64,000 bases of DNA. Origin: Pseudomonadota bacterium (lineage in GTDB: Bacteria > Pseudomonadota > Gammaproteobacteria > Burkholderiales > Thiobacillaceae). The DNA lies in assembly GCA_021820845.1 (NCBI GenBank), contig JAKADC010000001.1:186001-250000 (forward strand), written 5' to 3'. Positions 31,403 to 63,094 of this stretch are shown here, one piece after another (the stretch's first letter is position 1; every line of letters begins with the position of its first letter). The notes under the pieces are model-generated. The model was not told where the DNA came from and did no database searches. It saw only the letters and a program-made list of their open reading frames with translations. A program made the position numbers and the translations under genes.

Positions 31403-31472
31403 ATTACAAGAATAAATACAACAAGTTAACTCTACAGTGCTTTGCTTGGGTTTTCTTTGAAATTCTCTTGTT

Positions 31473-32551: not shown

Positions 32552-32552
32552 A

Positions 32553-33455: not shown

Positions 33456-33456
33456 C

Positions 33457-33825: not shown

Positions 33826-33868
33826 GCGTGGGCCACCATGCCTCCATGTTTTTTTTTGGAGGCAGAAA

Positions 33869-34353: not shown

Positions 34354-34721
34354 GCGCGAAACATACCCTTTCTGCACGTCTGCGTGACCTTCGAATCGAG
34401 TTCGAGTTATGGGTCGCCGCCTGGCTTGTCACGTCGGCGGTCCTGGCAGCATCCGTCTATCTATACTTGCAGCCCACAGTAAATGCGGGATTGTGGCGCA
34501 ATTACCTGCTGGCCCGTGTTCTTGAAATCGTTGGCCTGGGAGCGGTCTCCATCCCGGGCTGGCACACACCGTACCTCGTCATTCAATTTGTTCGAGAGGA
34601 GCTGCCGCTCGGCCTAGTGACGATCTGGGAGCGTGATCTTGTTCTGCTCCTGCAAACGCCGGTTTTCGCGCTTGTCGCATTGCCGTTGGCTTTTCTGGTC
34701 TTTTTCGACAAGAAGGCGTGA
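34350..34721 (+). CDS. Membrane protein of the mobilisation block
   Basis: A 123-residue protein with two clear hydrophobic segments (LWVAAWLVTSAVLAASVYLYL and LLLQTPVFALVALPLAFLVFF) and a polar middle. Not recognised. Its start overlaps the zinc-finger stop, and the coupling ATPase begins one base after its stop, so it may be the membrane partner of that ATPase. The start MSAKHT is chosen for this overlap; the longer open frame is antisense-like. Confidence 0.6.
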   Translation: MSAKHTLSARLRDLRIEFELWVAAWLVTSAVLAASVYLYLQPTVNAGLWRNYLLARVLEIVGLGAVSIPGWHTPYLVIQFVREELPLGLVTIWERDLVLLLQTPVFALVALPLAFLVFFDKKA

Positions 34722-34722
34722 C

Positions 34723-38625: not shown

Positions 38626-38672
38626 GCGAGACGGTGAACCCGGCCGGCGGCAATGAAGGGGAGGGTAAATAA
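38622..38672 (+). CDS. 16-residue linking open frame
   Basis: ATG at 38622 overlaps the preceding TGA (ATGA), and its TAA at 38670-38672 overlaps the ATPase ATG (TAATG). It encodes 16 residues, Gly/Glu rich, and contains GGGGAGGG just before its stop, a strong ribosome binding site for the ATPase. It may be a coupling peptide with no role of its own. Confidence 0.4.
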   Translation: MSETVNPAGGNEGEGK

Positions 38673-42417: not shown

Positions 42418-42890
42418 GCCCCGATGAATTGGCAATGCTCAAGCACGATTTCTACGTGATGGCGATGGAAAAAATGTGTAGTGACATGGATTGGGCCGGG
42501 CTAGGAGGCAATTGCCTCCCGGCCTGCCGAGCGATCTTTGAAGACGTCAAAGAAAGGTTTCCACAGGCCCGAATTATGGTCGGCTTAGTCGAGACAAATA
42601 GCGGGACGTCCAGGTGCTCTATGTCCGATAAGCGCGCAATTCTCGAATTCATTCAGACCGAGCAACCTTTAAAACCGGATTTCCATGCTTGGATTGACCT
42701 GGATGGCCGGGATTTTTTCGATCCGGTTGGTCCCTCGTGGCTTAGCGTAACTGCCGTTAATAACTGTAACTATCTGGATGCCAGTCTGGCTGAAGAACGC
42801 GGCGTCAAATATCAATCTGTGCTGGATGCCCCCGAAGATGTTGAAGAGTTCTATCGCCGGTTGTTAAGCCTCCAACGAAAGACAAACTAA
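42414..42890 (+). CDS. Unrecognised protein, possible transglutaminase-like fold
   Basis: A 158-residue protein lodged between pglZ and the methylase gene. GLGGNCLPACRAIFEDVKERFP puts Cys 34 (or 38) at the start of a helix, PDFHAWIDLDGRDFFDPVG gives His 91 at the start of a β-strand and Asp 96 or 103, the order of a papain/transglutaminase-like Cys-His-Asp triad. The similarity is by pattern only. The gene appears more AT-rich than its neighbours, suggesting later insertion, yet overlaps pglZ by four bases. Possibly a system-specific effector or protein-modifying enzyme (inference). Confidence 0.6.
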   Translation: MSPDELAMLKHDFYVMAMEKMCSDMDWAGLGGNCLPACRAIFEDVKERFPQARIMVGLVETNSGTSRCSMSDKRAILEFIQTEQPLKPDFHAWIDLDGRDFFDPVGPSWLSVTAVNNCNYLDASLAEERGVKYQSVLDAPEDVEEFYRRLLSLQRKTN

Positions 42891-42892
42891 GC

Positions 42893-45800: not shown

Positions 45801-46096
45801 CGCGCGATTGGTCAGGCAGGCATAAGCGCCGACTGACTTCCGATCTGGATCAGGCGCTGGTACTCATCGGGGCCTGCTTCGATGGCAGTGGCATCAACGC
45901 CTCTGACACGCTGAAGAACGAAAACTTCAAGCCGCACGTGGCGCTCAAGCCTTTGCTTGAGTGGTTGCAACGCAATGGCCCGGATCAGGCCACTCGCAAC
46001 GCAGCCTCGCGTGCCGTTTCGATCTACAACGGTTGGGCAGCCAGCCAGGGCGTGAAGCCCACGCAGGGCACGTTGTTCGAGGAGTATGAGCTATGA
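42893..46096 (+). CDS. DUF1156 DNA methyltransferase (PglXI-like)
   Basis: A 1067-residue methylase of the COG1743/DUF1156 type, typical of BREX type 3. The N-terminus (PVNQVAIIEGNAGKPIYQMSKWWARRRSSVFRSML) is the DUF1156 region, VADIFMGGGTTLVEGSRLG near residue 118 is the SAM-binding motif, and VITDPPFGGLLHYSELSDFFY near 677 is the catalytic DPPF motif of amino-methylases. Between them lie several Cys-pair zinc knuckles (CGKCGG, CPHCGH, CSACG). It is expected to methylate adenine or cytosine in host DNA and thereby mark self. The stop overlaps the next ATG. Confidence 0.9.
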   Translation: MATKKELLAQEVAKAVGAGKTVALETVDFNDPNRPKTCLEVDFPILPVNQVAIIEGNAGKPIYQMSKWWARRRSSVFRSMLIAAATKAPDDKSHAAKLVWDNYYANHQKRGAFKYLKVADIFMGGGTTLVEGSRLGMQMVGNDLNPVAWFVVKQELANVDLGEVKKLLADIEAEVKPQIMPYYYCDGPEGEKGTWTHLPTKKVMPADFDPLTIPRDERKDYRYEGPEIIYTFWAKHGPCQVTGCGHRTPIMSSPVMAVKTLSVKHWEHTCGKCGGEFHVEEDAARMAPDVPLYVAPSEYPFSVLDRKRGVVCPHCGHTALVNLGKGKNKKVELSLLVHPQWLAGEAKQDANGRPYGGSAQDDVAATTRWDVARAANIRLLEVRGTLSDEVTDPETGVTFVPVKGTVPKKSHYACSACGTVQDVLTTIKATGKTGPMAAYAVQGYAPKRNAAGKPYGGRFFAAYDAAHARQYDTAFAEWEVRKDADLKDYWPRSELPYGFMTHHLQGGVPNHGFTHWWTMFHPRQLLVHAQLLKAIVNAGNHDWKVREFVLGAFQNYLRNQSVLAFWHINKDHFVPAMSNNNFHPKSTLVEVGVFSPMGYGPWSSCVPVLLESRDWAMQPWEAVSAEGLKRKDAALAGGISGKSEKVFPGDPVNGADVFCGSSTELAKVVDASLDLVITDPPFGGLLHYSELSDFFYVWLRLALKDKYPDYFRAEYTPKSLEAVANKAREPEDPDGFYQRLLTQCWREAHRILKPSGILAFTFHHSEDEPWVAVLESLFDAGYYLEATYPIRSDETKGEGEFGSKTIEYDIIHVCRKRTEEPKPVSWGRMRREVMADVRQLQAMLENHAKEGLPAADIQVIRRGKALEYFSRHYGKVYVDEGRTISVKDALVGINQLIDEDADKGKEPPPVNAEPITRQFLRTFGNATEMKRDQLQKFLKGSITTPDEFEQRGWCTERSKIFTRVNPLDFARDWSGRHKRRLTSDLDQALVLIGACFDGSGINASDTLKNENFKPHVALKPLLEWLQRNGPDQATRNAASRAVSIYNGWAASQGVKPTQGTLFEEYEL

Positions 46097-46593
46097 GGCA
46101 ACTGCTCGACACCGTATGGCAGCGTCGCGGCACCAGTTGGATTTGGGACGAGGAAGCACGCAATCAGGTGTGCGCGGCCTCGGAAGTCTGGAGCTTGCGC
46201 CAGTTCCTGCAGGCGGTGGGTAACTGGCCCGACGACCTGCCGAGCAATGGCAACCAGACCCTGGTGGTCGCCGGCCTGGAGGGTAGTCTCGATCTTTTGA
46301 CGCCGGACGATGCGGAAGCATGGCTGGGCGATTCGGTTAAGGCTGCTATCTTGTCGTTCCAGGATCAGTACGCGGGAGAAGCCGCTCTGGTTTTCTGGCT
46401 GCCGCTGGGTCACAGCCGCGTTAAAGTACAACCGGCGACCGATGCGGTGACCTGGCTCTGCGAGGCACCGTATCGGGGCAGCCAGCTCGATATTGGCCGC
46501 ATCCTGTGGGGAGAAGCCAACGAGTATCCGCAAGAAATACTCCTGCGCGAGGGCAGCAAACCTGCTGGTCTGTTCCACCTGCGGATCACCTGA
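46093..46593 (+). CDS. Conserved-looking small protein of the defence operon
   Basis: A 166-residue protein, not recognised. TLVVAGLEGSLDLLTPDDAEAWLGDSV and then AALVFWLPLGHSRVKVQPA are suggestive of a degenerate P-loop fold in which the Walker lysine is missing, which could make it a BrxF- or BrxB-like partner; this is a weak inference. It overlaps the methylase gene by four bases and ends nine bases before the helicase, so it is an integral operon member. Confidence 0.65.
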   Translation: MRQLLDTVWQRRGTSWIWDEEARNQVCAASEVWSLRQFLQAVGNWPDDLPSNGNQTLVVAGLEGSLDLLTPDDAEAWLGDSVKAAILSFQDQYAGEAALVFWLPLGHSRVKVQPATDAVTWLCEAPYRGSQLDIGRILWGEANEYPQEILLREGSKPAGLFHLRIT

Positions 46594-46602
46594 GGCCAGC
46601 GC

Positions 46603-49380
46603 GTGGAAGCAGAGATTCAGTTTCAACCCGGCGAACGGATCACCCATCAGGAATATGGCCAGGGGGTCGTCCTTGACCCGGCGCGCGATGGCTATCTGCG
46701 CGCATTCTTCAGCCTCGGCGAGCGGCGGGTGCCGGTTGGCTCGGTTCGCCGCCAGTTATCGCGTACCGAGCGCATTCTCCGTGCCGTCGATGGTGGGGCT
46801 GATCGTTCGCGCAAGGCATGGCTGTCCTACGAGGCGCACGCACTGCCGGTGATGGAAAGCGCCTCGGCGCTGACCTCGGCCAAGATCGATCTGCTGCCAC
46901 ACCAGGTGGTGCTGACCCACCGTATCGCCACGGCCTCACCCCGGCGCTACCTGATTGCCGACGAGGTCGGGCTTGGCAAGACCATCGAAACCGCGCTGAT
47001 CCTGCGCGAGTTGGCCAGCCGGGGCGAGCTGAATCGCGCGCTGATGGTGGTGCCGGCCGGGCTGGTCAACAACTGGCACCGTGAGCTCAATGAGGTGTTC
47101 AACCTCGATTTCGAGGTGTTCGGGTCCGAAGGCGACATCACCGACCGTAAGACCAACGCCTTTGCCAAACACGACCGGCTGATTGCCAGTATCGATACGC
47201 TCAAGCGCCCGGCCCGCATCAAACGCCTGCTGGAGGCGCCACGCTGGGATCTGGTGGTGTTCGATGAAGCCCATCACCTGACCGCCTACCGGACGGGGGG
47301 CAAGGTCAGGAAGACCGAGAACTACAAGCTGGCCGAGGCGTTGAAGGATCACTCACGCGACCTGATGCTGCTTTCGGCGACGCCGCACCAGGGCAACCAT
47401 TTCCAGTTCTGGATGCTGGTGCAGCTGTTGAATCCGACCTTGTTCAGCGGCCCTGAGGAGATGCTGGAGAACCGTCACCGTCTCAACACCGTGATGTTCC
47501 GGCGCACCAAGGCCGACGCCTGCCAGCCCGATGGATCGCCGCTGTTTGCGCGGCGCTGGGTGCATACCGAATCCTTCCTGATGAATCAGGATGAACGACT
47601 GTTCTACGAGAAGCTGCGTGAATACCTGGAGGATGGCTTCAATCTGGCACGCCGTCAGGGCAGCAAAGGCCAGGCGCTCGGGTTCCTGATGGCCATTTTT
47701 CAGAAGATTGCTGCGTCGAGTTTCGCTGCCGTAAGGCGCACGCTGAAACGGCGACTGCTGATGCTGACGCTGCACGAGGCCTTGCTGCGCGATAAGGACC
47801 TCGACATCGAGGGCCGAGAGCGCCTGACGGATGAGGCTCGGGAACTGATTCACGAGGAGTTTGGGCTTTCCCGCGATGCGATTGGCCGCAGCGAAGTGGA
47901 CCGCGTGCTCGCTGATCTGAAATACCGCCTCGTCAAGAAGCTGGATGAAGAGGCGCTGGAAATGGCTTCTGATCCCTACGCGAGCGAATACGGTGCCGCG
48001 CACGCCGAGGAAGCCGCGTCGGCCGTGGTGGAACTGCATCTGCCCGAGGAACGCTTGCGTATCGGCGACCTGCTCGGGATCTTCCCGCAGCAGCGCGAGA
48101 CCAAGGCCCAGAAGCTGCTCGACGGCCTCGGCACGCTGTGGCAGCAGAACCCGAACGAGAAGATCGTGGTGTTTGCCACCTACCTCGGTACAGTGGACTT
48201 GATCGCCCGGGAAATCGACCAGACCTTCCCTGGCCAGGGCGTGGTGGTGCTGCGCGGTGGCGACCACGGCGCCAAGCTGGCTGCAGAACGCCGTTTCCGG
48301 CAGAAGGATGGGCCGCGCGTGCTGGTGTGTACCGCAGCGGGACGCGAAGGCATCAACCTGCAGTTCGCACGCATCCTGTTCAATTTCGATCTGCCGTGGA
48401 ACCCGATGGATATGGAACAGCGTATCGGGCGCATCCACCGCTATGGTCAAAACCACACGGCGCAGGTCTACAACCTGGTGCTGTCGGACACCATCGAGGG
48501 CCGTATCTTCCTGCTGCTCGACGAGAAGCTGACCGAGATCGCTCGCACCGTCGGCAAGGTCGATGATCAGGGCAATGTCGCGGAGGATTTGCGGGCACAG
48601 ATCCTGGGCCAACTGTCCGAGCGGCTCAATTACGACCGGCTATACCAAGAGGCGCTATCAGACCCCGAGCTCAAGCGCACGCAAGTAGAGCTGGAAGCAG
48701 CCTTGTCGAATTCCCGCGAAGCCCGACAGGTCGTGTTCGACCTGTTCCAGGATCTCGAAGGATTCAGCCTCGACGACTACAAACCCTTCTCTGACGTGTC
48801 ACCCAGCCTGGATCGGTTGGTGCGATTCCTTGCGGCTGCGGTCGCGGATCGCCAGCAGAAGCTGATCAAGGTCGACGACGAAGCCTACGACCTCGTGACG
48901 GTCGACGGGTCGCGTCGCGCGCGCTTCACGCTGAACCGTGACGCCGCCACCAGCCAGGACGATCTGGAGCTGATGGGCTTGGATCACCCGTTGGTGCAGG
49001 AAGAGCTTGGGCGCTGGCGCAGTCTGCCTCCGGAGGACGTAGGCATCGCTGTATCGGGGGATGTGGATGCGCCTGTACTGCTCTCCCTTTGGATGGTCGA
49101 GGTGTCCACTGGCAACGGTGAGCGCCGCGTCGTGGTTCAGCCGATCGCCGTCAAACAGGATGGCACGCGAGTTCCTGCGGTTGAGCGGCAATGCGAGCGG
49201 TATCTGCAGGCGCCGGCGACGTCACCGAAGTTCGTTCCAGAGCAACGGCTTGAGCTGTTTTCACACGCTATTGAGCCTACCCTGCAGCGCGAACTGAAGC
49301 ACAAGGGGGCGGCAAACGGAGATGGAAGCTATTCGGCTGAGTTGATCGGCTATGTCGAGATCGTTGTCCAGGGCGTGTAA
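46603..49380 (+). CDS. SNF2-family helicase (BrxHII/DrmD-like)
   Basis: A 925-residue helicase starting at GTG. Residues ~5-50 (FQPGERITHQEYGQGVVLDP) form a CarD/RapA-like β-barrel. The motor has Walker A IADEVGLGKTIETALILRE near residue 118, VVFDEAHHLTAYRTG near 218, LLSATPHQGNHFQFW, a helical insertion, and the C-terminal lobe with FDLPWNPMDMEQRIGRIHRYGQ near 595. SNF2 enzymes translocate along double-stranded DNA. BREX type 3 (BrxHII) and DISARM (DrmD) both use such helicases; the DUF1156/PglZ context favours the BREX assignment. It is the last gene of the operon. Confidence 0.85.
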   Translation: MEAEIQFQPGERITHQEYGQGVVLDPARDGYLRAFFSLGERRVPVGSVRRQLSRTERILRAVDGGADRSRKAWLSYEAHALPVMESASALTSAKIDLLPHQVVLTHRIATASPRRYLIADEVGLGKTIETALILRELASRGELNRALMVVPAGLVNNWHRELNEVFNLDFEVFGSEGDITDRKTNAFAKHDRLIASIDTLKRPARIKRLLEAPRWDLVVFDEAHHLTAYRTGGKVRKTENYKLAEALKDHSRDLMLLSATPHQGNHFQFWMLVQLLNPTLFSGPEEMLENRHRLNTVMFRRTKADACQPDGSPLFARRWVHTESFLMNQDERLFYEKLREYLEDGFNLARRQGSKGQALGFLMAIFQKIAASSFAAVRRTLKRRLLMLTLHEALLRDKDLDIEGRERLTDEARELIHEEFGLSRDAIGRSEVDRVLADLKYRLVKKLDEEALEMASDPYASEYGAAHAEEAASAVVELHLPEERLRIGDLLGIFPQQRETKAQKLLDGLGTLWQQNPNEKIVVFATYLGTVDLIAREIDQTFPGQGVVVLRGGDHGAKLAAERRFRQKDGPRVLVCTAAGREGINLQFARILFNFDLPWNPMDMEQRIGRIHRYGQNHTAQVYNLVLSDTIEGRIFLLLDEKLTEIARTVGKVDDQGNVAEDLRAQILGQLSERLNYDRLYQEALSDPELKRTQVELEAALSNSREARQVVFDLFQDLEGFSLDDYKPFSDVSPSLDRLVRFLAAAVADRQQKLIKVDDEAYDLVTVDGSRRARFTLNRDAATSQDDLELMGLDHPLVQEELGRWRSLPPEDVGIAVSGDVDAPVLLSLWMVEVSTGNGERRVVVQPIAVKQDGTRVPAVERQCERYLQAPATSPKFVPEQRLELFSHAIEPTLQRELKHKGAANGDGSYSAELIGYVEIVVQGV

Positions 49381-49439: not shown

Positions 49440-49592
49440 TGTATAGTGAACTAACGCCGCGACTCCGCCCGAGGAGTCGGCGGCGTTCGAACTGACGAAA
49501 AGCGAAGACACACCAGACATCGAATTGACGAACTGAAGACACGATCTGACATCTGACACCGCATAGCAGAATTGAAGAATTTAGAGACGACG

Positions 49593-50051
49593 ATGAATAC
49601 GAAAGTAAGACCCGACCTTCCAACAGAGGCGGAAGTTTCGCTGGCGAGAGAGAGCAGTAGGCAGCTCTCTCTGTACCTAAGCACGAAGGAAGAATCCCAG
49701 GCTATTCGGGTGATCGATCAGGCAGGCGAGCATGAAGCAGTACGTGTTCCGACTGCGGCATTTCGACTCTTGATCGATGTCTTGTCCGAGATGGCCCAAG
49801 GAAATGCGGTCAGCATGATTCCCGTGCATGCGGAACTCACAACACAAGAGGCGGCCGACATGCTCAATGTCTCACGCCCGCATTTGGTCAAGCTGCTAGA
49901 CAGCGGGACGATTCCGTACCACAAGGTGGGTACTCATCGTCGCGTGCGATATCAGGATTTGGTCGATTACAAGGCCAGGATTGATGCGGACAGAATGAAG
50001 GCATTGGAGGAGCTGGCGGCCCAGGCGCAAGAATTGAACATGGGCTATTGA
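49593..50051 (+). CDS. Antitoxin with excisionase-type HTH
   Basis: A 152-residue protein. The C-terminal half, LTTQEAADMLNVSRPHLVKLLDSGTIPYHKVGTHRRVRYQDLVDYK, is a MerR/excisionase-type helix-turn-helix as found in antitoxins paired with PIN toxins. The N-terminal half is probably the oligomerisation or toxin-contact part. ATG 49593 is used; a TTG seven codons earlier is possible. It abuts the toxin gene with no gap, and the upstream tandem repeats may be its operator. Confidence 0.85.
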   Translation: MNTKVRPDLPTEAEVSLARESSRQLSLYLSTKEESQAIRVIDQAGEHEAVRVPTAAFRLLIDVLSEMAQGNAVSMIPVHAELTTQEAADMLNVSRPHLVKLLDSGTIPYHKVGTHRRVRYQDLVDYKARIDADRMKALEELAAQAQELNMGY

Positions 50052-50621
50052 ATGGCAAATTTTTCTGTTGTGTATGACGCGTGTGTTCTTTATCCGGCAC
50101 CGCTGCGGGATCTGTTGATGCACTTGGCCCTCACGGATCTGTACCGGGCCAAGTGGACTGACGAGATTCACGAGGAATGGATGAGCAGTCTCCTGGAATT
50201 GCGCCAGGATTTGACACGCGCGCAGCTGGAGAGAACGCGGGATCTGATGAATCGCAGTGTTCGTGATGGTCTCGTGGAGGGTTACGACTACCTGATCCCG
50301 ACCTTGCAACTGCCTGATGCCGATGATCGCCACGTCCTCGCCGCTGCCATCCGCAGTCAGTCGAGCGTGATCCTCACCTTCAATCTCAAGGATTTTCCGG
50401 CGGTGGAACTCGACAAGTACGATGTCGAGGCGCTGCACCCGGACGAATTCATTTCCGACCTGATCGATCTCAATGCAGCCCGGGTATTGGAAGCGGTTGC
50501 GAGGCACCGCCAATCCTTGAAGAAACCACCCATGACTACGCGCGAATACTTGGACTGCTTGCTGAAACAGGGGTTGCCCGAGACGGTTAAACAGCTGGAG
50601 CAGTGGGAAGCCGCTTTCTAG
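50052..50621 (+). CDS. PIN-domain ribonuclease toxin
   Basis: A 189-residue VapC-like protein. VVYDACVLYPAPLRDLLM has the first active-site Asp (residue 9), TDEIHEEW supplies Glu 41/42, LPDADDRHVLAAAIRS the third acidic cluster (89-92), and LTFNLKDFP the last (Asp 114), completing the PIN acidic tetrad. Such toxins cut RNA when the antitoxin decays. It follows the antitoxin directly (stop TGA, ATG immediately after). It lies between the two defence-like modules and could stabilise the element. Confidence 0.87.
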   Translation: MANFSVVYDACVLYPAPLRDLLMHLALTDLYRAKWTDEIHEEWMSSLLELRQDLTRAQLERTRDLMNRSVRDGLVEGYDYLIPTLQLPDADDRHVLAAAIRSQSSVILTFNLKDFPAVELDKYDVEALHPDEFISDLIDLNAARVLEAVARHRQSLKKPPMTTREYLDCLLKQGLPETVKQLEQWEAAF

Positions 50622-52925: not shown

Positions 52926-53090
52926 GGCAGCGATAAAAACGTGTCGCAATCTGGTGTGGGAAGTGGCATTTTGGGGGGGGCAACCGTGTTGACGGTAAGA
53001 ACTGGTCTTGAGGCTTAGTGGTTTCCAGTAAACTTTAGATGCTTCACTGGGTTTACCGTGAGGAGCAGCCTGATGAGGAGCAGGTGAGTG

Positions 53091-56000
53091 ATGGCAACTG
53101 ATAAAAAGAAATGCAGTACACCCCTAAATCTACCAGTAACCAATAACTATCCACTGCGACATGTGTCCGTGCGGGTGCCCTGGCATGACGCCGGCTGGAA
53201 CGGCACGGTCTGCACTGCGCCGCAACTGAATGGGGCATGCGCGAAACTCAAAGGTATTGCCGGCTCGAAGAAGGACGAGCAGGAAATTACCGTCGCTGGC
53301 CGCAAACTCGATGAAATTCCGGTTGAGCAATGGCCCGCCTGCGTAAATGAACGCGGCATGTTCATGGCACCAATGGAGCTGGATGTGATCAAGCGCCACG
53401 CGCTGGCCAGCCAGAACCCTAAGAACTACGGGCACTTCCGGCCCACGCCTCAGCGCTACCCCGCTTTCTCCGCAGGTATCGTGCCGTTCCGGTGGCTGAT
53501 GCGTGACAACCTGGATTACTACGCTGACACGCTGGATCTGGACGTGGACCCCGATCGCGAGCCAGACCTGGGCTATGAAAGCAACTGGGTACATGAGGCG
53601 GCAAACCAGACGGCGCTATTGGACGGCTTTGCCGGGCATTTGCGCGAGGAAGACTCGCTGTGTCTCTTCTACGCCAAGCATGTGCCCTTTGTGGAAGGAA
53701 CCGGCCGAATTTTGGTCGGGGCGGGGCGCATCAAGCAGATAGGCGCGGTTTCCGAGTACAGGCGCGAAGGTGAGGGCCCAGCGGGCATGGTATGGGAGCG
53801 CCCCGTCCAGCATTCAATTCGACCCAAGGGCAAAGATGGTTTCTTAATGCCCTATCTCGAGATGCTGTCACGTGCGCAGGAAGACGCATCGCTTGACTTG
53901 GAGAGATACACCGCCAAAGCGCCCGATGAACACTGGGACGAGTTCTCATACGGCAGTGAGTTGGTAACGCACGATGGTGCCATCGCTGCCCTGTTATCAA
54001 TGGAGGCCGCGCTGCAGCGTATGCAGGACGAGTTGGGTATCTCGACTGATTGGCAGCGCGACTGGATTCATACCGAGTTGGTTCGCTTGTGGAAGGTGCG
54101 TGGACCCTTCCCAGGGCTTGGTGCTGTCTTGACGGCATTTGGCTTGCAGCGCGGCGTGTTTGTTGCTCATGTGCTGCAGGAAAAGGCGGGTGAAAACATT
54201 GATCCCTGGCCGCTGGTTGATACGCTCTTTAAGGACCCGGCAGCTTTGTTGCCGCAAGCGCTTCGTGCAGACGTTAAGGAACTGGCACCTACTTGGAAGG
54301 GTTTGCCAAGCGAACGTCGCCAGTTTTTGAAACTCATTAGCCGTTTCGAGTTAACCGTGGAGCAGGCGGAAAACCTGTATGAGGAGGGTTCACGCAAGAA
54401 GCAGGGTTGGGGGGGGACCGATAAGGAAATTCTCGCCAATCCCTATCGCATCTTTGAAGTGAGCCGGCACGACCCGGACGGCATCAGGTTGTTGGCGATA
54501 GATCGGGGCGTCTTTCCAGACGACGCTGTTCGTCTGAAGCATCCATTGGAGGAACCGTCGCGCCTGGAATCGGCCGTCGATTTGCGGCGGATCAGTGCAT
54601 TCTGCATTGCGGCACTCGAGACAGCCGCGGCGGCCGGGCACACCTTGCTCTCATCGGATAGGGTAGTGGAAGCCGTGCGTGCCTATCCAGTACGTCCCGA
54701 GTGCCATGTGACCGGGGACATGTTGTCAGCCCGGTTGGAGGATATGGCGCCTGAGATCGTGCCGGCGTCGTTACAAGCTGGCACCGGGCTTCAACTTGCG
54801 CGGTACAAGACGATTGGGGAATTGGTACGCAAGCAGGTCCTTGGCAGATTGGGTGGTCAGCGGCATAAAGTCGATGTCGACTGGCAGAAAGCGTTGGCAG
54901 CAAAGCTGGGCAAACCCATTGATGCAGAGGACAAGCGTGCGCATCAGGAAAAAGTTTCCGGGCTCAAGGAACTGGCGGAGGCACGCTTCAGCGTGCTAGC
55001 CGGCCCGGCCGGGGCAGGCAAGACAACGGTTCTGGGCATTCTGTGTGCACAGCGCGAGATTTCGGCGGAGGCCATTTTGTTGTTGGCCCCAACCGGCAAA
55101 GCACGCGTACGCATGCAGGAACTCGCCGGGGGAGACGGTGCCCGGGCGCTGACCATCGCGCAGTTCCTCAACCAGCATGGCCGCTATGACGGCAAAGCCG
55201 GCCGTTATGTGTTGAGTGATCGTCCCAAAGCCCAAGGGTTTGGAACGGTTATTGTCGACGAATCGTCGATGCTCACCGAAGACATGTTGGGCGCATTGTT
55301 GGATGCGCTGCAAGGCGTGAAGCGTTTCATTTTTGTGGGTGACCCCGCGCAGTTACCACCCATTGGCGCGGGACGGCCCTTTGTGGACATCATTGCGAAA
55401 TTGCGGCCGGCTAACTATGAGTCAATCTTTCCACGAGTCGCTCCCAGCTACGTCGAACTCACAATTGAGCGGCGCCAGGTTGGTTCGGAGCGGGCAGATT
55501 TGCGGCTTGCACGTTGGTTCAGCACGGCACCGCCCTCTGCTGGTGAGGATGATATTTTTGTCGCTGGCGACGATGAGCATAAAACGATTTGTTTTGTGGA
55601 GTGGAAGAGTCCCGAGGAATTCCAGCATAAGCTTGTCGGCGTCCTAAAAGAGGAACTCAAGCTGGCAGGGCCTGAGGATCAACGGGGATTCAATCAACAG
55701 TTGGGGGCAACGCCGAAAGGCGATTATGACTACTTCAATGCAACCCGAAATGGAGAGATTGGGTCAGTCAAAGCCGTCGAGCAGTGGCAGATTCTCAGCC
55801 CATTGCGGGGAATGCCATTTGGCGTGGGTGATGTCAATCGACTGATCCACGAACGATACCGCTCGGGGCTGGTGGCATTGGCGACGCGATACCCGCGCTC
55901 TATCCCCAAACCATTTGGTGCGGAGCGCATTGTCTATGGCGACAAGGTCATCAACTTGAGAAATCACAAACGCGATGGGAAGCGTGTATATCCTCAAGAG

Positions 56001-56831
56001 GGTGCACTTGGCTACCTGGCCAATGGGGAGATTGGTATTGCTGTGGGACAGTGGAAGTCGAACGGATTCCCAAAAATACTCAAAGTGGAGTTTTCATCGC
56101 AGAAGGGATACACCTACGATTTCTATGGGAGCGACTTCAGTGACGAGGGTGATGCGGCAATGGAGCTGGCCTATGCACTCACCATCCACAAGGCACAGGG
56201 TAGCCAATTCAATCTGGTGATTGTGGTATTGCCAGAGGGACACCCCATTCTGTCGCGCGAGCTGATCTATACCGCGTTGACCCGGCACCAGGACCGCGTT
56301 GTGGTGATGCACCAGGGGCCGCGCACGATGCTGAAAGACTTCGCCTCACCCTTACGATCTGAGACGGCAAGACGCATGACCAATCTCATGACGGATTGCC
56401 GGATGCTTGAGATTCCTCAGGCAAAGGGAAGCGTGTTCCTGCAAGAGGGCTTGATCCACCTGACAAGCAAAGGCGTGGCTGTGAGATCAATGTCCGAGCT
56501 GGCAATCGCCGAGGCGCTTACTGCTTCCGGCGTAACGTACGAATACGAAAAGGCCTTGACCCTAGGTGGGCAAACCCGTTATCCCGACTTCACAATTGAA
56601 GATGAAATTTCAGGTCGGACGATCTACTGGGAGCATCTCGGAATGCTCGAAAACGAAGGCTATCGCAGTGCTTGGGAAAAGAAGCTGGCTTGGTACAAAT
56701 CCAACGATGTGCTGCCTGAAAGCGAGGGTGGTGGCTCAAAGGGGATGCTGGTGACCTCGATCGGTTCGGGAATGACCGGGTTTGACCTATCGACGATCAA
56801 AGCCGATATAGACCGGTTGTTTGGAGGGTGA
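53091..56831 (+). CDS. RecD-like helicase with putative C-terminal nuclease domain
   Basis: A 1246-residue protein. The first ~600 residues are unrecognised. Residues ~635-1070 form a superfamily 1B motor: AGPAGAGKTTVLGIL (Walker A, near 640), TVIVDESSMLTEDML (Walker B, ~722), FVGDPAQLPPIGAG (motif III), and the UvrD/RecD C-terminal signature ALTIHKAQGSQFNLVIVV followed by IYTALTRHQDRVVV. The last ~120 residues contain YPDFTIEDEISGRTIYWEHLG, a PD-(D/E)xK-like pattern. A GTG one codon earlier is an alternative start; GAGGAGCAGG is the ribosome site. First gene of a three-gene module with SNF2 and Hsp70-like proteins. Confidence 0.82.
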   Translation: MATDKKKCSTPLNLPVTNNYPLRHVSVRVPWHDAGWNGTVCTAPQLNGACAKLKGIAGSKKDEQEITVAGRKLDEIPVEQWPACVNERGMFMAPMELDVIKRHALASQNPKNYGHFRPTPQRYPAFSAGIVPFRWLMRDNLDYYADTLDLDVDPDREPDLGYESNWVHEAANQTALLDGFAGHLREEDSLCLFYAKHVPFVEGTGRILVGAGRIKQIGAVSEYRREGEGPAGMVWERPVQHSIRPKGKDGFLMPYLEMLSRAQEDASLDLERYTAKAPDEHWDEFSYGSELVTHDGAIAALLSMEAALQRMQDELGISTDWQRDWIHTELVRLWKVRGPFPGLGAVLTAFGLQRGVFVAHVLQEKAGENIDPWPLVDTLFKDPAALLPQALRADVKELAPTWKGLPSERRQFLKLISRFELTVEQAENLYEEGSRKKQGWGGTDKEILANPYRIFEVSRHDPDGIRLLAIDRGVFPDDAVRLKHPLEEPSRLESAVDLRRISAFCIAALETAAAAGHTLLSSDRVVEAVRAYPVRPECHVTGDMLSARLEDMAPEIVPASLQAGTGLQLARYKTIGELVRKQVLGRLGGQRHKVDVDWQKALAAKLGKPIDAEDKRAHQEKVSGLKELAEARFSVLAGPAGAGKTTVLGILCAQREISAEAILLLAPTGKARVRMQELAGGDGARALTIAQFLNQHGRYDGKAGRYVLSDRPKAQGFGTVIVDESSMLTEDMLGALLDALQGVKRFIFVGDPAQLPPIGAGRPFVDIIAKLRPANYESIFPRVAPSYVELTIERRQVGSERADLRLARWFSTAPPSAGEDDIFVAGDDEHKTICFVEWKSPEEFQHKLVGVLKEELKLAGPEDQRGFNQQLGATPKGDYDYFNATRNGEIGSVKAVEQWQILSPLRGMPFGVGDVNRLIHERYRSGLVALATRYPRSIPKPFGAERIVYGDKVINLRNHKRDGKRVYPQEGALGYLANGEIGIAVGQWKSNGFPKILKVEFSSQKGYTYDFYGSDFSDEGDAAMELAYALTIHKAQGSQFNLVIVVLPEGHPILSRELIYTALTRHQDRVVVMHQGPRTMLKDFASPLRSETARRMTNLMTDCRMLEIPQAKGSVFLQEGLIHLTSKGVAVRSMSELAIAEALTASGVTYEYEKALTLGGQTRYPDFTIEDEISGRTIYWEHLGMLENEGYRSAWEKKLAWYKSNDVLPESEGGGSKGMLVTSIGSGMTGFDLSTIKADIDRLFGG

Positions 56832-56835
56832 GGGC

Positions 56836-56892
56836 ATGAATGATTGGCTGCTTGATGACGCACCGATAGCTGGGGTTGATTGTCATGGATAA
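56836..56892 (+). CDS. 18-residue linking open frame
   Basis: ATG at 56836 with GGAGGGTGAGGG just before it, four bases after the RecD-like stop. It encodes 18 residues (starting MNDWLLDDAP) and ends at a TAA that overlaps the SNF2 gene start region (ATG 56885). It may exist only to pass ribosomes on to the helicase gene. Uncertain as a real product. Confidence 0.35.
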   Translation: MNDWLLDDAPIAGVDCHG

Positions 56893-59800
56893 AGAATTGC
56901 GACCTGGCGACCGGGTCAGGCTAATCGCAAACCCGGGACAGGTTGGAGTGCTGGGCAACGAAACCGATGGCCCGCCTCACCGGCTGCGCGTGCTGGTGAC
57001 GTTTCTGGATGGCGACGAGCAATTCATCCTCAAGGGCTCGTTGGAGAAGGTTGAAAGAAGGCCCCCAGGCCCTTATGCCGAAATTGCCCGGGGCCGTTAT
57101 GGGCGGGTTGAAGATCTACGGGGGCTGATGACCTATTACCGCTTGAGTGGGCGGTTGGCCAATCTGATCTATAGCTTGAACACCACCAACACCCAGTTCT
57201 TGGCCTATCAGTTCAAGCCGGTTCTGCATTTTCTGGACTCGCCCTGCAACGGTATTCTGATTGCTGATGAAGTTGGCCTGGGCAAGACCATTGAGGCAGG
57301 GTTGATCTGGACGGAGTTGCGCGCACGCATGGATGCCAAGCGTTTGCTGGTGGTGTGCCCGGCGATGCTTCGCGAAAAATGGAAGATGGAACTGGCTGAC
57401 CGTTTTGGCGTGCAGGCTGAACTGGTCGATGCGGGTGAGTTGCGGGCGCGTTTGCAGGCGGTGCGCCAGCGCCCTCAGGACAGCTTTGCGTTGGTGGCAA
57501 GCATTCAGGGTTTGCGTCCGCCCAAGGGATGGAACGACAAGAAGGCGCCCAGTCAGTCTACTTCCGCCAAGCTGGGCCGCTTTCTGGATGAGGCTGATCT
57601 GGAAGACCCTCTGCTGGATATGGTGGTAATCGATGAGGCTCACTACTTGCGCAATCGGGAAACGCAGAACAACCGTCTGGGTTCATTGCTGCGTCCGGTG
57701 ACGCAGAATTTGGTGATGCTCTCCGCCACGCCGATCCAGATGCGCAGTACCGATCTGTTTAATCTGTTGCATTTGCTGGATGAGGACGCCTTCCCCTACG
57801 AAAACTCCTTTGAACATACCTTGCGTGCCAATGCGCCTATCGTAGCCTTGCGTGACCGGGCACTGAATTCGGTCGTTACCCAGGCAGAGTTCGTCGAGGC
57901 TTTGAACGACGCAATCTTGGCGCGCATCTTCGATGACAACGAGCAGATCGAATATCTGCGCAATCATCCGCCATCCGATGATGAGTTGGCTTCACCACAG
58001 GGCCGCGCCGAGATCGCTGAGCGCCTGGACCGCATCAACCCGCTTGCGAAGGTAGTGACACGAACCCTAAAACGCGATGTGCAGGAAATGCGCGTGACGA
58101 GGGAACCTGTGGCCATCAAAGTCACGATGAGCGCGGTAGAGCAGGCGTTTTATGATGCGGTGACCAGTGAGGTACGGGAGTTCTGCGAAGACATGGACAT
58201 ATCCACTGGCTTCATGCTGACCGTGCCCCAGCGCCAAATGTCGAGCTGCATGGCAGCGGCCTGTAGAGGCTGGCTCGAGAAGATGGGAAAAACCAGTACG
58301 GAGGAATTGGATGAGCTGGTGTATGAAAGCTACGGCGATACCGATAACGGTTCATCTGAAACCCCAAAACTGGGGACGCTACTCAAGGAGTTGGTTCGCA
58401 TTGCCCATCAGGTAGGGAACTTTGAAGCGCTTTCTGGAAGCGACAGCAAATATTCGGAACTGCTCAGAAACCTAAAGAGCTACTGGTCCAACCACCCGGG
58501 CAAGAAAGTAGTGCTGTTCTCCTTCTACCGTCCGACGCTGCGCTACTTGTCGGAGCGGCTGGAAAAAGACGGCGTACGCGCGGTCATTGTGCACGGGGGC
58601 ATGGACAAGCAAGAGGCTTTGCGTCATTTCGCCAGTTTGGACGGGCCGAACATTCTGCTGTCATCCGAGGTGGCATCCGAGGGCGTGGATCTCCAGTTCT
58701 CAAGCCTGTTGATCAATTACGACCTTCCATGGAATCCGATGCGGATTGAACAACGCATTGGTCGTATCGACCGGATAGGGCAGGAAGAAGAAAAAATACT
58801 GATCTGGAATCTGGTCTACGAAGACACCGTGGACGATAGGGTTTATGTGCGGTTGCTCGAGCGGCTCAACATTTTTCGCCAGGCGCTGGGAAGCATGGAA
58901 GCCGTGCTGGGCGATGAAATTCGTGAGCTGGGTTATACCCTTTTGTCTCATAAGCTGACCCCGGAGCAGGAGTTGGACCGTATTAACCGGGCCAGCGTAA
59001 CGATCGAGGCGAACAATCTTCAGCAGCAAAGGCTTGAATCCGAGGCGACACAGTTGATCGCCCACGGGGAGTTCATCCAGAACAAGGTGCGGGCAGCGCG
59101 GGAATTAGGCCGTTACATCCGGGGAGAGGATCTGATGGCCTATGTCGGGGACTTTTTCTATCGGGAGTATCCCGGCACTCGGTTTATCCGGTCCGACCAT
59201 AATCCTCTGGAAGCCACGTTGGAACTTTCGACAGAGGCTCGGGTGCGGTTCTCAGACTTTCTTGCTGGTCAGCGTCTTCAGGGCCGAACGGCTCTATTGT
59301 CGTCGCGATCACCGAGGCTGTTGTTCGAGAATTGCCTGGGCAAGCTCACGCCAGGGTTGGAACGCGTAACCCAGGAACACCCTCTGGTTCGATTTGTGGC
59401 TGAGCAACTCAAGTCGGGCGGAAACGGGACTGGTTATGCGCCAGTTTCAGCCATTGAATTGCCTGCCAACACGGTATCGGGTTTCTCTTCAGGCGTTTAT
59501 GTATATGCCGTGGCCCGCTGGACAGTTTCAGGTGCGCGCGACGTCGAGCGCCTTGAATATGTGGTCATGAATCTCAAAGGGAGCCCCCAGACCACCGGTG
59601 AGGCTGCCGAACACCTGGTGAACACTGCCGCAATGTCAGGGCGTGACTGGATATCGGCGATGTCGTCGCTAGACCACGGCGTTGCTGCAGACGTATTCGA
59701 TCAGTGCAAGGAAACACTTGAAAAGCGGTTCAAATCGTTCCGTGATGACTGCATGCGCGAAGACCGTGACCGTATCAAACTAATGGTCAACATGCTTGAA

Positions 59801-60016
59801 CGCCATCTTGATAACCAGCGTAAGAAGATCACAGAACGTATCGACCATTACCGCCATTTCGGGACGGAGCAGCAGCGAAAATTGATACCAGCGGAGGAAG
59901 GTCGTTTGAAAAAGGTTACGGAACGACTCAATAGCCGAATGGAAGAATTGCGACTGAAGGAGCGTGCGTCGGCGTCGGAGAGCTTTGTATCAGGTGGGGT
60001 GATCCGACTAGCTTAA
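56885..60016 (+). CDS. RapA-like SNF2 helicase
   Basis: A 1043-residue helicase distinct from the one at 46603. The N-terminus (RPGDRVRLIANPGQVGVLGNE) is a RapA/Tudor-like β-barrel. The motor has IADEVGLGKTIEAGLIWTE near residue 125, VVIDEAHYLRNRETQ near 247, MLSATPIQMRSTDLFNLLH, SSEVASEGVDLQFSS and YDLPWNPMRIEQRIGRIDRIGQ near 620. The long C-terminal third is helical with a charged coiled-coil end. ATG 56885 is preferred; TTG 56876 is possible. Central gene of the RecD/SNF2/Hsp70 module. Confidence 0.85.
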   Translation: MDKELRPGDRVRLIANPGQVGVLGNETDGPPHRLRVLVTFLDGDEQFILKGSLEKVERRPPGPYAEIARGRYGRVEDLRGLMTYYRLSGRLANLIYSLNTTNTQFLAYQFKPVLHFLDSPCNGILIADEVGLGKTIEAGLIWTELRARMDAKRLLVVCPAMLREKWKMELADRFGVQAELVDAGELRARLQAVRQRPQDSFALVASIQGLRPPKGWNDKKAPSQSTSAKLGRFLDEADLEDPLLDMVVIDEAHYLRNRETQNNRLGSLLRPVTQNLVMLSATPIQMRSTDLFNLLHLLDEDAFPYENSFEHTLRANAPIVALRDRALNSVVTQAEFVEALNDAILARIFDDNEQIEYLRNHPPSDDELASPQGRAEIAERLDRINPLAKVVTRTLKRDVQEMRVTREPVAIKVTMSAVEQAFYDAVTSEVREFCEDMDISTGFMLTVPQRQMSSCMAAACRGWLEKMGKTSTEELDELVYESYGDTDNGSSETPKLGTLLKELVRIAHQVGNFEALSGSDSKYSELLRNLKSYWSNHPGKKVVLFSFYRPTLRYLSERLEKDGVRAVIVHGGMDKQEALRHFASLDGPNILLSSEVASEGVDLQFSSLLINYDLPWNPMRIEQRIGRIDRIGQEEEKILIWNLVYEDTVDDRVYVRLLERLNIFRQALGSMEAVLGDEIRELGYTLLSHKLTPEQELDRINRASVTIEANNLQQQRLESEATQLIAHGEFIQNKVRAARELGRYIRGEDLMAYVGDFFYREYPGTRFIRSDHNPLEATLELSTEARVRFSDFLAGQRLQGRTALLSSRSPRLLFENCLGKLTPGLERVTQEHPLVRFVAEQLKSGGNGTGYAPVSAIELPANTVSGFSSGVYVYAVARWTVSGARDVERLEYVVMNLKGSPQTTGEAAEHLVNTAAMSGRDWISAMSSLDHGVAADVFDQCKETLEKRFKSFRDDCMREDRDRIKLMVNMLERHLDNQRKKITERIDHYRHFGTEQQRKLIPAEEGRLKKVTERLNSRMEELRLKERASASESFVSGGVIRLA

Positions 60017-60039
60017 TAAAAGTAAAAAAAGGAGGGGGC

Positions 60040-61854
60040 ATGGCGGCATCATTGAAAGAAGCGCTGGAAAAAGCCTATGCGGAGAAGGGGCAGGAACTGC
60101 CTGAAGTAAAAAGAGGTAGTACCCGGAATCAGAATGCGGGACAGCCAACTGTCACGGTTTCCTATGGGAAGAGCCACGGATGTAGCCATCCGGGAAATGG
60201 AAGACAACGGCCGCCGTATTCTGCACACAAGGCAGGAAGGAATAATTCGTCAACCTCCCCGAAAGCTAATCCCATTGTGGTGGGGAAAACGACTGGGCAG
60301 GCGAAACACAATTCAACCAGCGCCAGCGCACCCAAACAGATCGGCACCCCGAGATCGATTGCGGTTCCTGTTAAGCCTGCACCCCTGCCCGACTATGTGA
60401 TTAATATTGCCAGCGGGACTACCCCCACCTGCCTGATAACTTCTGAGCGTGATGACTATGTCTATGTGGCACCGGCTAAATCCGGCATAAGAACCCAGGC
60501 GCATGGGGGAACATGGAGCGACGAGCGTGAAGTTGTGATTGGCCTTGATTTCGGCACGTCGAGCATCAAGGTCATTGTTGGTGACAATGCGTTGGGCAAG
60601 GCCTTTGCGGTGCCATTCAACGATGCGACAGACATTTTTCGCTATCTCTTACCAAGTCGTCTCTACGAAACGGCCGCCAACTTTTCACTGCAAGAGGGGA
60701 GACGTGTATACCGCGACCTGAAGCTGTCGCTACTGGCAGATCCGAATGATCAGGAGGCGCAAGTACGAGTAACAGCGCTATTGGCCCTGGTTATCAGACA
60801 CGCTCGTGGCTGGCTGCTTTCAGAGCATCGAGATGTTTACAGTCAAACCAACATCCTTTGGAAGCTCGCAGTCGGTTTGCCAGCGGCCCACCATCTCAAT
60901 GATGAGCATAAGGGACTATTCGAGAGGATGAGCCAGGCTGCGTGGCTGGCGGCCTCGTCCAACAAGCAGGAACTTGGTCGGGACACTGTCACGGCTGCAC
61001 TTTCTAGGGCGGCGCAGTTGATGTCTGGGGCAGCTACTACTCGGCCAACTGAGGAAATCGAGGTTAGTGTTGTGCCCGAGATTGCAGCCCAGATTTACGG
61101 TTATGTGGCATCCAATCGATTCGACAAGCGGGCAAAGAATCTATTTCTGATGGTTGATGTTGGGGCGGGCACTGTCGACTCTTCGCTATTTCACGTCAAA
61201 GCTGGAAGAGGAGGGAAGTTTGGTTTCACGTTTTATACCAGCCAGGTTCAGCCTAATGGTGTGATGAATTTGCACCGGTATCGGATGCATTGGTGGGAAG
61301 GGGCATTCGTAAAACTAGGCGGACAGTTCAAACCCGATACCAGTAAGTTTCACGAGAGCAAATTTTCTACCGATAGGATGCACAGCATACCGGAGAGCTA
61401 CACGGGGTATTTCTCCGATATTTCAGTGCAATACAGAGATGGGGTCGAGGATCCGGACCAATACTTCTTGATGAAACGGGTGGTTTCCCAGGTTCGAGGA
61501 AAAACAATGTGGAGGACCTGGAAAGACGGTTTTCTGACCCAGCAGGACTTGGATGGGGTTCCGATGTTCCTGTGTGGTGGTGGGACTCGGATGCAGTTCT
61601 ATCGCAAGCTTGAGCATGAGATGCAGAATATGTCTGGAGCCAGTTGGCTCAAGGCGGAAACCAAGCCGCTCGAGACGCCCAGAAGCCTCATTGCACCAGG
61701 ATTGTCTGTGCAGGATTACGACCGCCTTTCGGTGGCATTTGGGCTGAGTTTTCTGGAGGTGAGCGAAGTAATAAAAGCTACACCTGATCCAACAATTATC
61801 CCTGATCAGGTCACGTCCTGGCGGGACAACTATATAGACAAGGATCAGTGCTGA
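60040..61854 (+). CDS. Hsp70/actin-fold ATPase with disordered N-terminus
   Basis: A 604-residue protein. Residues ~20-165 are rich in Ser, Gly, Asn, Pro and Lys and are probably disordered. The ASKHA core follows: VVIGLDFGTSSIKVIVGD (phosphate-1), LFLMVDVGAGTVDSSLF (phosphate-2) and MFLCGGGTRM (adenosine motif). There is no DnaK-type substrate-binding domain, so it is a specialised ATPase rather than a general chaperone. AGGAGGGGG precedes the ATG, 23 bases after the SNF2 stop. Third gene of the module, convergent with the integrase gene. Confidence 0.8.
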   Translation: MAASLKEALEKAYAEKGQELPEVKRGSTRNQNAGQPTVTVSYGKSHGCSHPGNGRQRPPYSAHKAGRNNSSTSPKANPIVVGKTTGQAKHNSTSASAPKQIGTPRSIAVPVKPAPLPDYVINIASGTTPTCLITSERDDYVYVAPAKSGIRTQAHGGTWSDEREVVIGLDFGTSSIKVIVGDNALGKAFAVPFNDATDIFRYLLPSRLYETAANFSLQEGRRVYRDLKLSLLADPNDQEAQVRVTALLALVIRHARGWLLSEHRDVYSQTNILWKLAVGLPAAHHLNDEHKGLFERMSQAAWLAASSNKQELGRDTVTAALSRAAQLMSGAATTRPTEEIEVSVVPEIAAQIYGYVASNRFDKRAKNLFLMVDVGAGTVDSSLFHVKAGRGGKFGFTFYTSQVQPNGVMNLHRYRMHWWEGAFVKLGGQFKPDTSKFHESKFSTDRMHSIPESYTGYFSDISVQYRDGVEDPDQYFLMKRVVSQVRGKTMWRTWKDGFLTQQDLDGVPMFLCGGGTRMQFYRKLEHEMQNMSGASWLKAETKPLETPRSLIAPGLSVQDYDRLSVAFGLSFLEVSEVIKATPDPTIIPDQVTSWRDNYIDKDQC

Positions 61855-61900: not shown

Positions 61901-62911
61901 TTAACCAAGCTTCTTCGCCAGATCCTCAGCCCTTAAGTGCGTATATCTTTTAAGCATGGCGAGGGTCTTGTGCCCCGTGATGCTAGCCACTTCCATGCTG
62001 TCGAACACTCCCTTTTCGAACAAACGTGATGTGGCTTCGTGCCGCAAGTCGTGAAATCTTAACCCTTCCACCTTGGCTGTGACGCAAAGCCGTCGCCAAG
62101 CCTTGTTAAAAGAGTCGGATCCGGCCCACCACCAAAATGCCCGCCCATCAATGGAAGCGGGGAGTTTCTTAACGTCCTTCAGTGCACGCACCGCCTCGCT
62201 GGAAAGTGGAACCACTCGGAACGCATCGGCGTTCTTCGTTCCCCGCCCCTGGATTCCGCGAATGATCATTACCCGTCTCTGGAGATCGATGTCGGGCCAC
62301 GTGACCGACAGTAGCTCGCCCAGGCGCGCGGCGGATTCAACGGCCACGACAATCAGGGCGCGTAGTTGTTTTTCGTCACCGGTCGCTGCCAGCAAATTTT
62401 CGAGCTCCTCGCCCTCAAGGCGGCGTTCCCGTGATTTTCCGGGCGGTGGCCGGCTCACCATCGCACAGGGATTCGCAGGGAGCGGCAGCCCCCACTCTTT
62501 GCCGGCCAGATCGATGATGCGGGATAGAAGGTTGATTTCCTTGCGCACCGTATCCCCTGACAGACCGGATGCGAGGCGTTTTTTACGGTAATCCGTGACG
62601 ATCTTGCTGGACAGAGCTGCGAGCGAGTAAGCACCGAGCTCGGACTCCAGCGTTTTGAGCGCAGGCTTGAAGCCTTTGCCGCGCTTCTTTGGCAGCTCGT
62701 CCTCGCGATAGCGCTCAATCAGATCGCGGACCGTAGTCCGTTCGACTTCGCCACGCGAGACGAAGGCGCCGCGATCCATTTCTGACTCAACTGCGCGTGC
62801 CCAAGCTTCAGCTTCTTTCCGGGTGTGCCAGGTCTTCGACTGCAAAGGGTAGCCCTTGCGCTTGACGATGGCTTGCCACTGCAGCTCGCCGCGTTTTCGG
62901 ATCGTCGCCAT
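61901..62911 (-). CDS. int: Tyrosine recombinase (element integrase)
   Basis: A 336-residue site-specific recombinase. It has an N-terminal arm-binding-like segment (WQAIVKRKGYPLQSKTWHTRKEAEAWARAVESEM), a SAM-like core-binding domain, and the catalytic residues Arg 196 (ARLGELL), His 287 and Arg 290 (HDLRHEATSRLFEKG), His 313 (GHKT) and Tyr 323 (RYTH). All are present. It lies ~95 bases inside attR, reading away from the end. GGGTGACA repeats sit just upstream and may be its arm sites and autoregulatory region. Confidence 0.95.
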   Translation of the reverse strand: MATIRKRGELQWQAIVKRKGYPLQSKTWHTRKEAEAWARAVESEMDRGAFVSRGEVERTTVRDLIERYREDELPKKRGKGFKPALKTLESELGAYSLAALSSKIVTDYRKKRLASGLSGDTVRKEINLLSRIIDLAGKEWGLPLPANPCAMVSRPPPGKSRERRLEGEELENLLAATGDEKQLRALIVVAVESAARLGELLSVTWPDIDLQRRVMIIRGIQGRGTKNADAFRVVPLSSEAVRALKDVKKLPASIDGRAFWWWAGSDSFNKAWRRLCVTAKVEGLRFHDLRHEATSRLFEKGVFDSMEVASITGHKTLAMLKRYTHLRAEDLAKKLG

Positions 62912-62941: not shown

Positions 62942-63004
62942 ACAATCGTACAGATGAGGCAATAAGTACGCAAATTAAGGCTTAGAGGCCTATAACGTTT
63001 CCCT

Positions 63005-63049
63005 CTCCTAAGGGGTAGGTCGGACGTTCGATTCGTCTTCGGGGCGCCA
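63005..63049 (+). repeat. Right attachment site (attR), 45-bp direct repeat
   Basis: Exact copy of 31358-31402, the 3' part of tRNA-Arg(CCT) from anticodon loop to CCA. It lacks the 5' half, so it is a tRNA fragment and not a gene. Confidence 0.95.
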
Positions 63050-63094
63050 GATACCAAATTCGATCGGTGCAGCATGCAGGGCACACAAAAGAAA

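Follow-up and report, generated by a model that had tools for sequence, protein, structure and literature searches.

We describe a pair of adjacent genes, encoding a SNF2 motor and an ATPase of the Hsp70/actin (ASKHA) fold, from a 64,000-nucleotide stretch of a Thiobacillaceae genome (Pseudomonadota; assembly GCA_021820845.1, contig JAKADC010000001.1, positions 186,001 to 250,000, forward strand; the whole stretch is called the window below). In the window the pair (genes 2 and 3) follows gene 1, which encodes a RecD-like helicase, and the three form a run of long co-directional open reading frames (ORFs) on the + strand at 53088-61854, with intergenic gaps of 44 and 23 bp. An earlier note, made from the sequence alone, had pointed out this tight, one-directional arrangement, which is confirmed, and had taken the three genes as one unit. 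That part was not borne out: the conserved unit is genes 2 and 3, not the trio. The SNF2 and ASKHA genes occur together in 50 of 50 loci, gene 1 beside them in five.

The SNF2 and ASKHA genes as a unit

Scanning a gene-3 alignment over a genome collection with one genome per species (84,980 species) yielded 43 loci, and all 43 contain a SNF2 match to gene 2, although the SNF2 had no role in locus selection. Three plasmid loci, three from phylum genomes and the window complete the 50 (duplicates L001, L005-L008 and L052 were dropped before counting, and L029 is included despite a SNF2 fragment of only 234 amino acids, aa). The counts do not equal independent events: L003, L035, L036, L037 and L039 are close relatives, and plasmids L104 and L105 share their gene-3 protein. 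SNF2 and ASKHA are directly adjacent on one strand in 48/50 loci, with gaps of -47 to +165 bp by predicted starts; one small ORF separates them in two (L019, L038). The gene order is reversed in 13 loci, every one cyanobacterial. Pairs were found in seven phyla: Pseudomonadota, Acidobacteriota, Thermodesulfobacteriota, Cyanobacteriota, Spirochaetota, Bacteroidota and that of an archaeon.

Among 398 phylum genomes the gene-3 profile matches five at E<=1e-10. Gene 2 matches eight at E<=1e-60, with E<=1e-178 for the five gene-3-positive genomes and 1e-86 to 1e-88 for the other three. On plasmids, an ASKHA gene adjoins the SNF2 in all six records with a SNF2 match at E<=1e-164 (three of these ASKHAs, two of them the identical protein, were missed by a single-sequence gene-3 search and recovered by the profile). 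The distances of the two proteins correlate closely across 45 pairs (Mantel r = 0.954; 0 of 5000 permutations reach this value, the highest being 0.246). Loci with split, cut or fragmentary genes (L022, L026, L029, L030, L034) were left out of this test and of the residue counts. In the SNF2 family, 20 of 21 motif positions are invariant in 45/45 and the remaining one is kept in 44/45; in the gene-3 family this holds for 12 of 13, the remaining one again being kept in 44/45.

Gene 2 contains GLGKT at residues 134-138 and DEAH at residues 253-256, with Pfam matches to SNF2-rel (4e-23) and Helicase_C (2.6e-19). Its start is listed as TTG, the next ATG being at 56885. By family profile the closest solved structure is RapA (6.9e-59), in agreement with the RapA-like SNF2 helicase of the earlier note. 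RapA of Escherichia coli is annotated as an RNA polymerase recycling factor, and we know of no ASKHA partner for it. The PADLOC model for DrmD (PDLC02623) matches gene 2 at 920 bits and all 35 pair SNF2s scanned. Against the NCBIfam model DISARM_DrmD, gene 2 scores 440.7 bits, below the cut-off of 610. The putative Tudor-like N-terminus that the earlier note read in gene 2 would fit the architecture reported for BrxHII and the helicases of BREX-related (BR) systems (PMC12839542, available portion).

Gene 3 has a nucleotide-binding domain (NBD) fold with the phosphate and adenosine motifs of Hsp70/actin ATPases; its putative active-site residues are D170, K228, E347 and D373. Residues 44-112 have a predicted local distance difference test (pLDDT) score below 50. 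In the model, folding extends to the end of the NBD, near residue 580 of 604, and no substrate-binding domain (SBD) was found; the predicted structure thus agrees with the ASKHA ATPase with a disordered N-terminus and no SBD that had been read from the sequence. Window gene 3 received no family name from Pfam, PADLOC or NCBIfam. Pfam HSP70 matches one of 41 family members (E 0.0057), PDC-M61B matches 17/41 weakly, and weak LmuB matches reach at most 6/41 per model. The stretch before the first motif is 255-631 residues in nine measured reversed-order cyanobacterial loci and 5-245 in 36 others. The long extensions (L025, L027, L028, L032, L033, L041, L043, L044, L045) carry a moderately hydrophobic stretch, with a 19-residue mean of 1.3-1.6, that may anchor them in a membrane or form a buried helix. 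With the single window sequence as query, gene 3 gave no matches in 50,697 phage records and 0 of 60 pattern matches on viral contigs were confirmed; this query is known to miss divergent relatives, and distant phage copies could escape it.

Defence loci, gene 1 and Hsp90-like partners

The pair is repeatedly nested in or beside defence loci, and the defence context proposed earlier holds. In a Desulfocapsaceae genome (L014) it sits inside a complete type I bacteriophage exclusion (BREX) operon on a single strand, brxA-brxB-brxC-SNF2-ASKHA-pglX-three ORFs-pglZ-brxL, the BREX genes each being named by PADLOC. In an Acidobacteria genome (L012) it interrupts, in inverted orientation, a defence island system associated with restriction-modification (DISARM), with drmA on one side and the drmMI/drmD half on the other. 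The gene order there is otherwise that of the annotated Nostoc DISARM, and the locus has a true DrmD separate from the SNF2 of the pair. Aminobacter HY435 encodes the co-directional run hmaA-two ORFs-hmaB-hmaC-SNF2-ASKHA-gene 1, and hmaB and hmaC also occur with the pair in Mesorhizobium (L040). AAA_5 and McrC-like genes accompany it in L002, L054 and L055 (PF10117 at 2e-71 in L002); the SNF2s of these three loci belong to no fewer than two distinct branches. In Cupriavidus (L011), DrmA- and DrmB-like genes precede the pair; it has a DrmMI-like gene nearby in L015, and in Variovorax (L023) it is adjoined on the opposite strand by a BREX gene set including PglZ and BrxL. Other pairs are near SspH, HEC-05, and type III and type IV restriction genes. 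The pair of L002, on an Aminobacter plasmid, is adjoined by HamA of Hachiman and a DEAD/DEAH helicase (13679-17960).

Gene 1 matches the RecD2-like model TIGR01448 at 178 bits, under its cut-off of 500 bits, and PADLOC PDC-S68 over its full length (1491 bits, residues 21-1245). PDC-S68 is presumably a single-gene candidate in PADLOC; in the window, unlike that cataloguing, it is accompanied by the pair. The model of the C-terminal tail resembles the restriction-endonuclease superfamily, so that we consider the tail nuclease-like, with a predicted PD-(D/E)xK fold. Its conserved residues are E1137, D1167 and E1182-H1183; the E of (S/N)E, the D of (P/A)DF and the EH are kept across those aligned homologues in which the tail is present (it is missing from L068). 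The RecD-like helicase with a PD-(D/E)xK-like tail described in the earlier note is supported by both profile matches and the structure prediction.

Gene 1 lies upstream of the SNF2 in the window and downstream of the ASKHA in the other four loci that have it beside the pair, all from Rhizobiales (L035, L039, L040, L042). The SNF2 tree places the window distant from these four, which suggests that the trio arose at least twice. Six of the 50 pair loci are shorter than 10 kb, so some absences of gene 1 may reflect cut-off. Searched independently, gene 1 was found in five of the 398 genomes (two, window included, beside the pair), in five plasmid records (none beside it) and on one viral contig (not beside it). 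A gene-3 profile search of the nine unlinked loci gave no match. We therefore reject the trio as a constant unit, since gene 1 is in 5/50 pair loci and the pair is beside 2/11 gene-1 places; of the conserved linkage that the earlier note had proposed to look for, that between genes 2 and 3 was found throughout. An IncC plasmid of Vibrio fluvialis carries one gene-1 relative without the pair (L067, 10001-13654), with a Qnr-family gene nearby.

The next-nearest SNF2s, from three phylum genomes and three plasmid records, have an Hsp90-type protein in an overlapping or adjoining frame in six of six cases (predicted starts). These partners carry the Hsp90-type motifs E(L/V)(L/M)QNAED and GxFG(I/V)GFK and are about 1040-1120 aa long in five; that of L110 is a 325-aa ORF. 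One record annotates the partner as an HSP90-family chaperone. The gene-3 profile found no ASKHA in these six loci, and Hsp90-like queries found no match in the 50 pair loci. The two partners searched against solved structures both match sacsin (5e-8, 1e-8) and have a weak match to the restriction enzyme McrA near the C-terminus (E 0.0047, 0.00074). Four of the six keep cysteine pairs in this region, which is poorly kept in L109 and lacking from L110; its HNH-type residues are not uniform. The loci are L106 (5788-12272), L107, L108, L109, L110 and L111, several with a cysteine-rich, HNH-like C-terminus. They form a module parallel to the SNF2-ASKHA pair.

In a quick first tree, a branch (SH-aLRT, the Shimodaira-Hasegawa-like approximate likelihood ratio test, 90) separates 46 pair SNF2s from 13 others. 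A more careful second tree includes 30 of 45 complete pairs and two plasmid pairs, has some long branches, and omits four other SNF2s of the first (L010_14, L035_06/L039_06, L054_00, L055_01). It splits the 32 Hsp70-partnered and six Hsp90-partnered SNF2s from three DrmDs (the only ones included), HmaA, the other SNF2 of the window and RapA with support of 98/99. Thirty of the 32 Hsp70-partnered SNF2s form a 98/98 clade. The base is unsettled: L031 and L048 (archaeal and Bacteroidetes) branch close to it in unsure order with the archaeal L106, whose SNF2 has an Hsp90-like partner, and the Hsp90 group as a single branch is supported only at 57/48.

The genomic island

Genes 1-3 occupy one end of a 31.6-kb island integrated at a tRNA-Arg gene (Table 1). 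The island is bounded by a 54-nt direct repeat with copies 94% alike; together with the integrase and a second module, this matches the location given in the earlier note, at the end of a mobile element with another defence module. Among the 36 genomes of the genus that were searched (the host's own and 35 congeners), at least 14 congeners have both flanks of the site on one contig with less than 200 bp between them; the site is thus frequently unoccupied. In five congeners (G010, G011, G025, G028, G032) about 4-11 kb separates the flanks, which gives the site the look of an integration hotspot. Of 60 genomes searched among relatives of the host, gene 3 turned up in its own alone, which fits recent acquisition.

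The second module encodes, in order, a DUF499-like ATPase (1.5e-7), two unnamed ORFs, an N6-methyltransferase (MTase) with weak DUF1156 similarity, a small ORF and a SNF2 helicase. It resembles the BREX-related systems in the available portion of PMC12839542, yet is divergent. Between the two modules, at 49572-50621, is an HTH_17 and PIN_3 gene pair that is toxin-antitoxin-like. A TrfA-like replication protein (4e-5) and a TraG/TraD-like ATPase (1.5e-10) are encoded at 32379-36360, and from these gene similarities plasmid ancestry of the island is suggested.

Table 1. Positions of the three genes, their domains and the island features in the window
Feature	Position	Strand	Description
Gene 1	53088-56831	+	1247 aa; RecD2-like superfamily 1 helicase with C-terminal nuclease-like domain; PADLOC PDC-S68; optional partner
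Gene 1, C-terminal domain	56445-56828	+	About residues 1120-1247; PD-(D/E)xK/Vsr-like by predicted structure and alignment
Gene 2	56876-60016	+	1046 aa; SNF2 motor of the RapA/DrmD-like group, chaperone-partnered branch
Gene 3	60040-61854	+	604 aa; Hsp70/actin-fold (ASKHA) ATPase; constant partner of gene 2
Gene 3, N-terminus	60040-60519	+	Residues 1-160; low-confidence, largely disordered in predicted structure
Gene 3, folded nucleotide-binding domain	60520-61779	+	Residues 161-580; predicted structure
Island, left end repeat	31354-31407	+	Within tRNA-Arg(CCT) 31327-31402
Island, second module	38672-49380		DUF499-like ATPase, N6-MTase, SNF2 helicase
Island, tyrosine integrase	61901-62911	-	ORF and Pfam scan
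Island, right end repeat	63001-63054	+	Direct repeat beside integrase

Proposed role and alternatives

We favor, with confidence a little short of even, the reading of genes 2 and 3 as a defence plug-in of two genes, in which a dedicated ATPase of the Hsp70 fold gates or assembles the work of a SNF2 double-stranded DNA translocase that aids partner nucleases or restriction systems. Its basis is the constant pairing, the correlated divergence, the intact ATPase motifs, the nesting in unrelated defence operons, the nuclease-like fold of gene 1 and the Hsp90-partnered SNF2 group. We infer a single SNF2-ASKHA complex with the ATPase as a switch, DNA remodelling as the output and an anti-phage or anti-plasmid effect. 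The motor would travel along invading DNA and may strip or remodel bound proteins (RNA polymerase, phage DNA-binding proteins, replication complexes), its work gated or assembled by the Hsp70-fold ATPase. The cleared DNA would then be exposed to a nuclease or restriction system from neighbouring genes. In the window this partner may be gene 1, for unwinding and cutting; elsewhere it may be BREX, DISARM, Hma or McrBC.

Some observations weigh against this reading. Several loci (e.g., L004, L018, L020, L024, L033, L045) have no co-directional gene within 250 bp of the pair, and a partner nuclease there is therefore in trans or nonexistent. Gene 1 is mostly apart from the pair, with 9 of 11 independently found places lacking it. 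Clustering is usual among defence genes in any case, and proximity need not mean cooperation. The scans, by PADLOC or Pfam, covered selected neighbours and had no control set; some of these neighbours had no PADLOC match, and what we claim is repeated nesting rather than a measured enrichment.

The main rival is that the pair is a guard or back-up system, which would await a phage protein that blocks host restriction and then halt the infection. PARIS, which would be the precedent, consists of AriA and AriB and is not known to include a SNF2 or Hsp70-fold protein. In the available portion of PMC11341690, ariAB is likewise a two-gene unit carried within a Salmonella BREX island, where it responds to the anti-BREX protein Ocr. 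The occurrence of our pair as a two-gene unit within BREX and DISARM loci, inverted in the latter, is in line with such a role. Neither pair protein has a recognisable toxic or nuclease domain, and the pairs without a close co-directional neighbour also speak against a guard, which we consider unlikely but a serious contender.

Gene 3 could instead be a dedicated chaperone of the Hsp70 type, serving to fold or recycle the large SNF2 protein, and no defence switch. The Hsp70 NBD fold and the Hsp90-like ATPases beside related SNF2s agree with this idea, but it fits poorly with a model that lacks an SBD, and the divergence of gene 3 tracks one partner across seven phyla; we consider it improbable. 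Quite improbable as well is the dedicated three-gene system of the earlier note, in which the RecD-nuclease, the SNF2 and the ATPase would function only jointly. The close spacing in the window and the recurrence in Rhizobiales, in a different order and with distant SNF2s, argue for it, and the 45 of 50 pair loci without gene 1 in the stretch covered and the gene-1 places without the pair argue against it. A DISARM variant, with gene 2 as DrmD and genes 1 and 3 as accessories, is very improbable and DISARM membership is rejected: the PDLC02623 matches and the DISARM genes near the pair in L011, L012 and L015 favor it, but gene 2 scores under the DISARM_DrmD cut-off, the three DrmDs of the tree are outside the chaperone-partnered branch, L012 has its own DrmD, and DrmA, DrmB or DrmC is the best match for none of nine window proteins scanned with PADLOC (two SNF2s match the DrmA model secondarily; other and small island ORFs were covered by Pfam alone or not scanned).

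Among known systems, DISARM class 1 shares a SNF2 motor of similar length, and the window pair differs by its constant ASKHA partner and its branch. The BR systems with DUF499, N6-MTase and Swi2-Snf2 proteins share RapA-like Swi2/Snf2 helicases; these go with a DUF499 ATPase and an MTase, unlike the window pair, and the main text of PMC12839542 has no occurrence of 'hsp70' or 'ASKHA'. CoCoNuTs and their relatives (PMC11090510) likewise have an Hsp70-like domain in a predicted defence system, but as far as the available portion describes, it is fused to McrB/McrC and keeps the SBD, whereas gene 3 is a separate, SNF2-linked gene without one. The available portions of the papers on CoCoNuTs, the BREX-related systems, ARMADA (PMC12458937), Dnd (PMC10853773) and HEPN (PMC3710099) do not mention a SNF2-Hsp70 gene pair. 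A literature search, with most subscription journals and bioRxiv outside its coverage, recognised no description of the SNF2-ASKHA pair. The module had been said to carry no recognisable name, which stands for the pair; gene 1 has one in PDC-S68, and gene 2 matches a model named DrmD. We rate the pair as a promiscuous accessory module, so far undescribed, that combines known folds.

There are eukaryotic SNF2 remodellers that depend on actin-fold subunits. We put forward tentatively, at somewhat less than even odds, that prokaryotes have a parallel to these: a whole class of SNF2 motors whose constant partner is an ATPase of a chaperone fold, Hsp70-like in one group and sacsin/Hsp90-like in another, and which would serve as general plug-ins for unrelated defence systems. 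It raises a testable question, the role of an Hsp70- or Hsp90-type ATPase for a SNF2 motor. The results also warn that SNF2 genes labelled DrmD by profile can be a separate family with a different partner. If the pair does help BREX, DISARM, Hma and McrBC alike, these systems would share a bottleneck in DNA restriction, for example protein clearance, that is solved by a portable motor.

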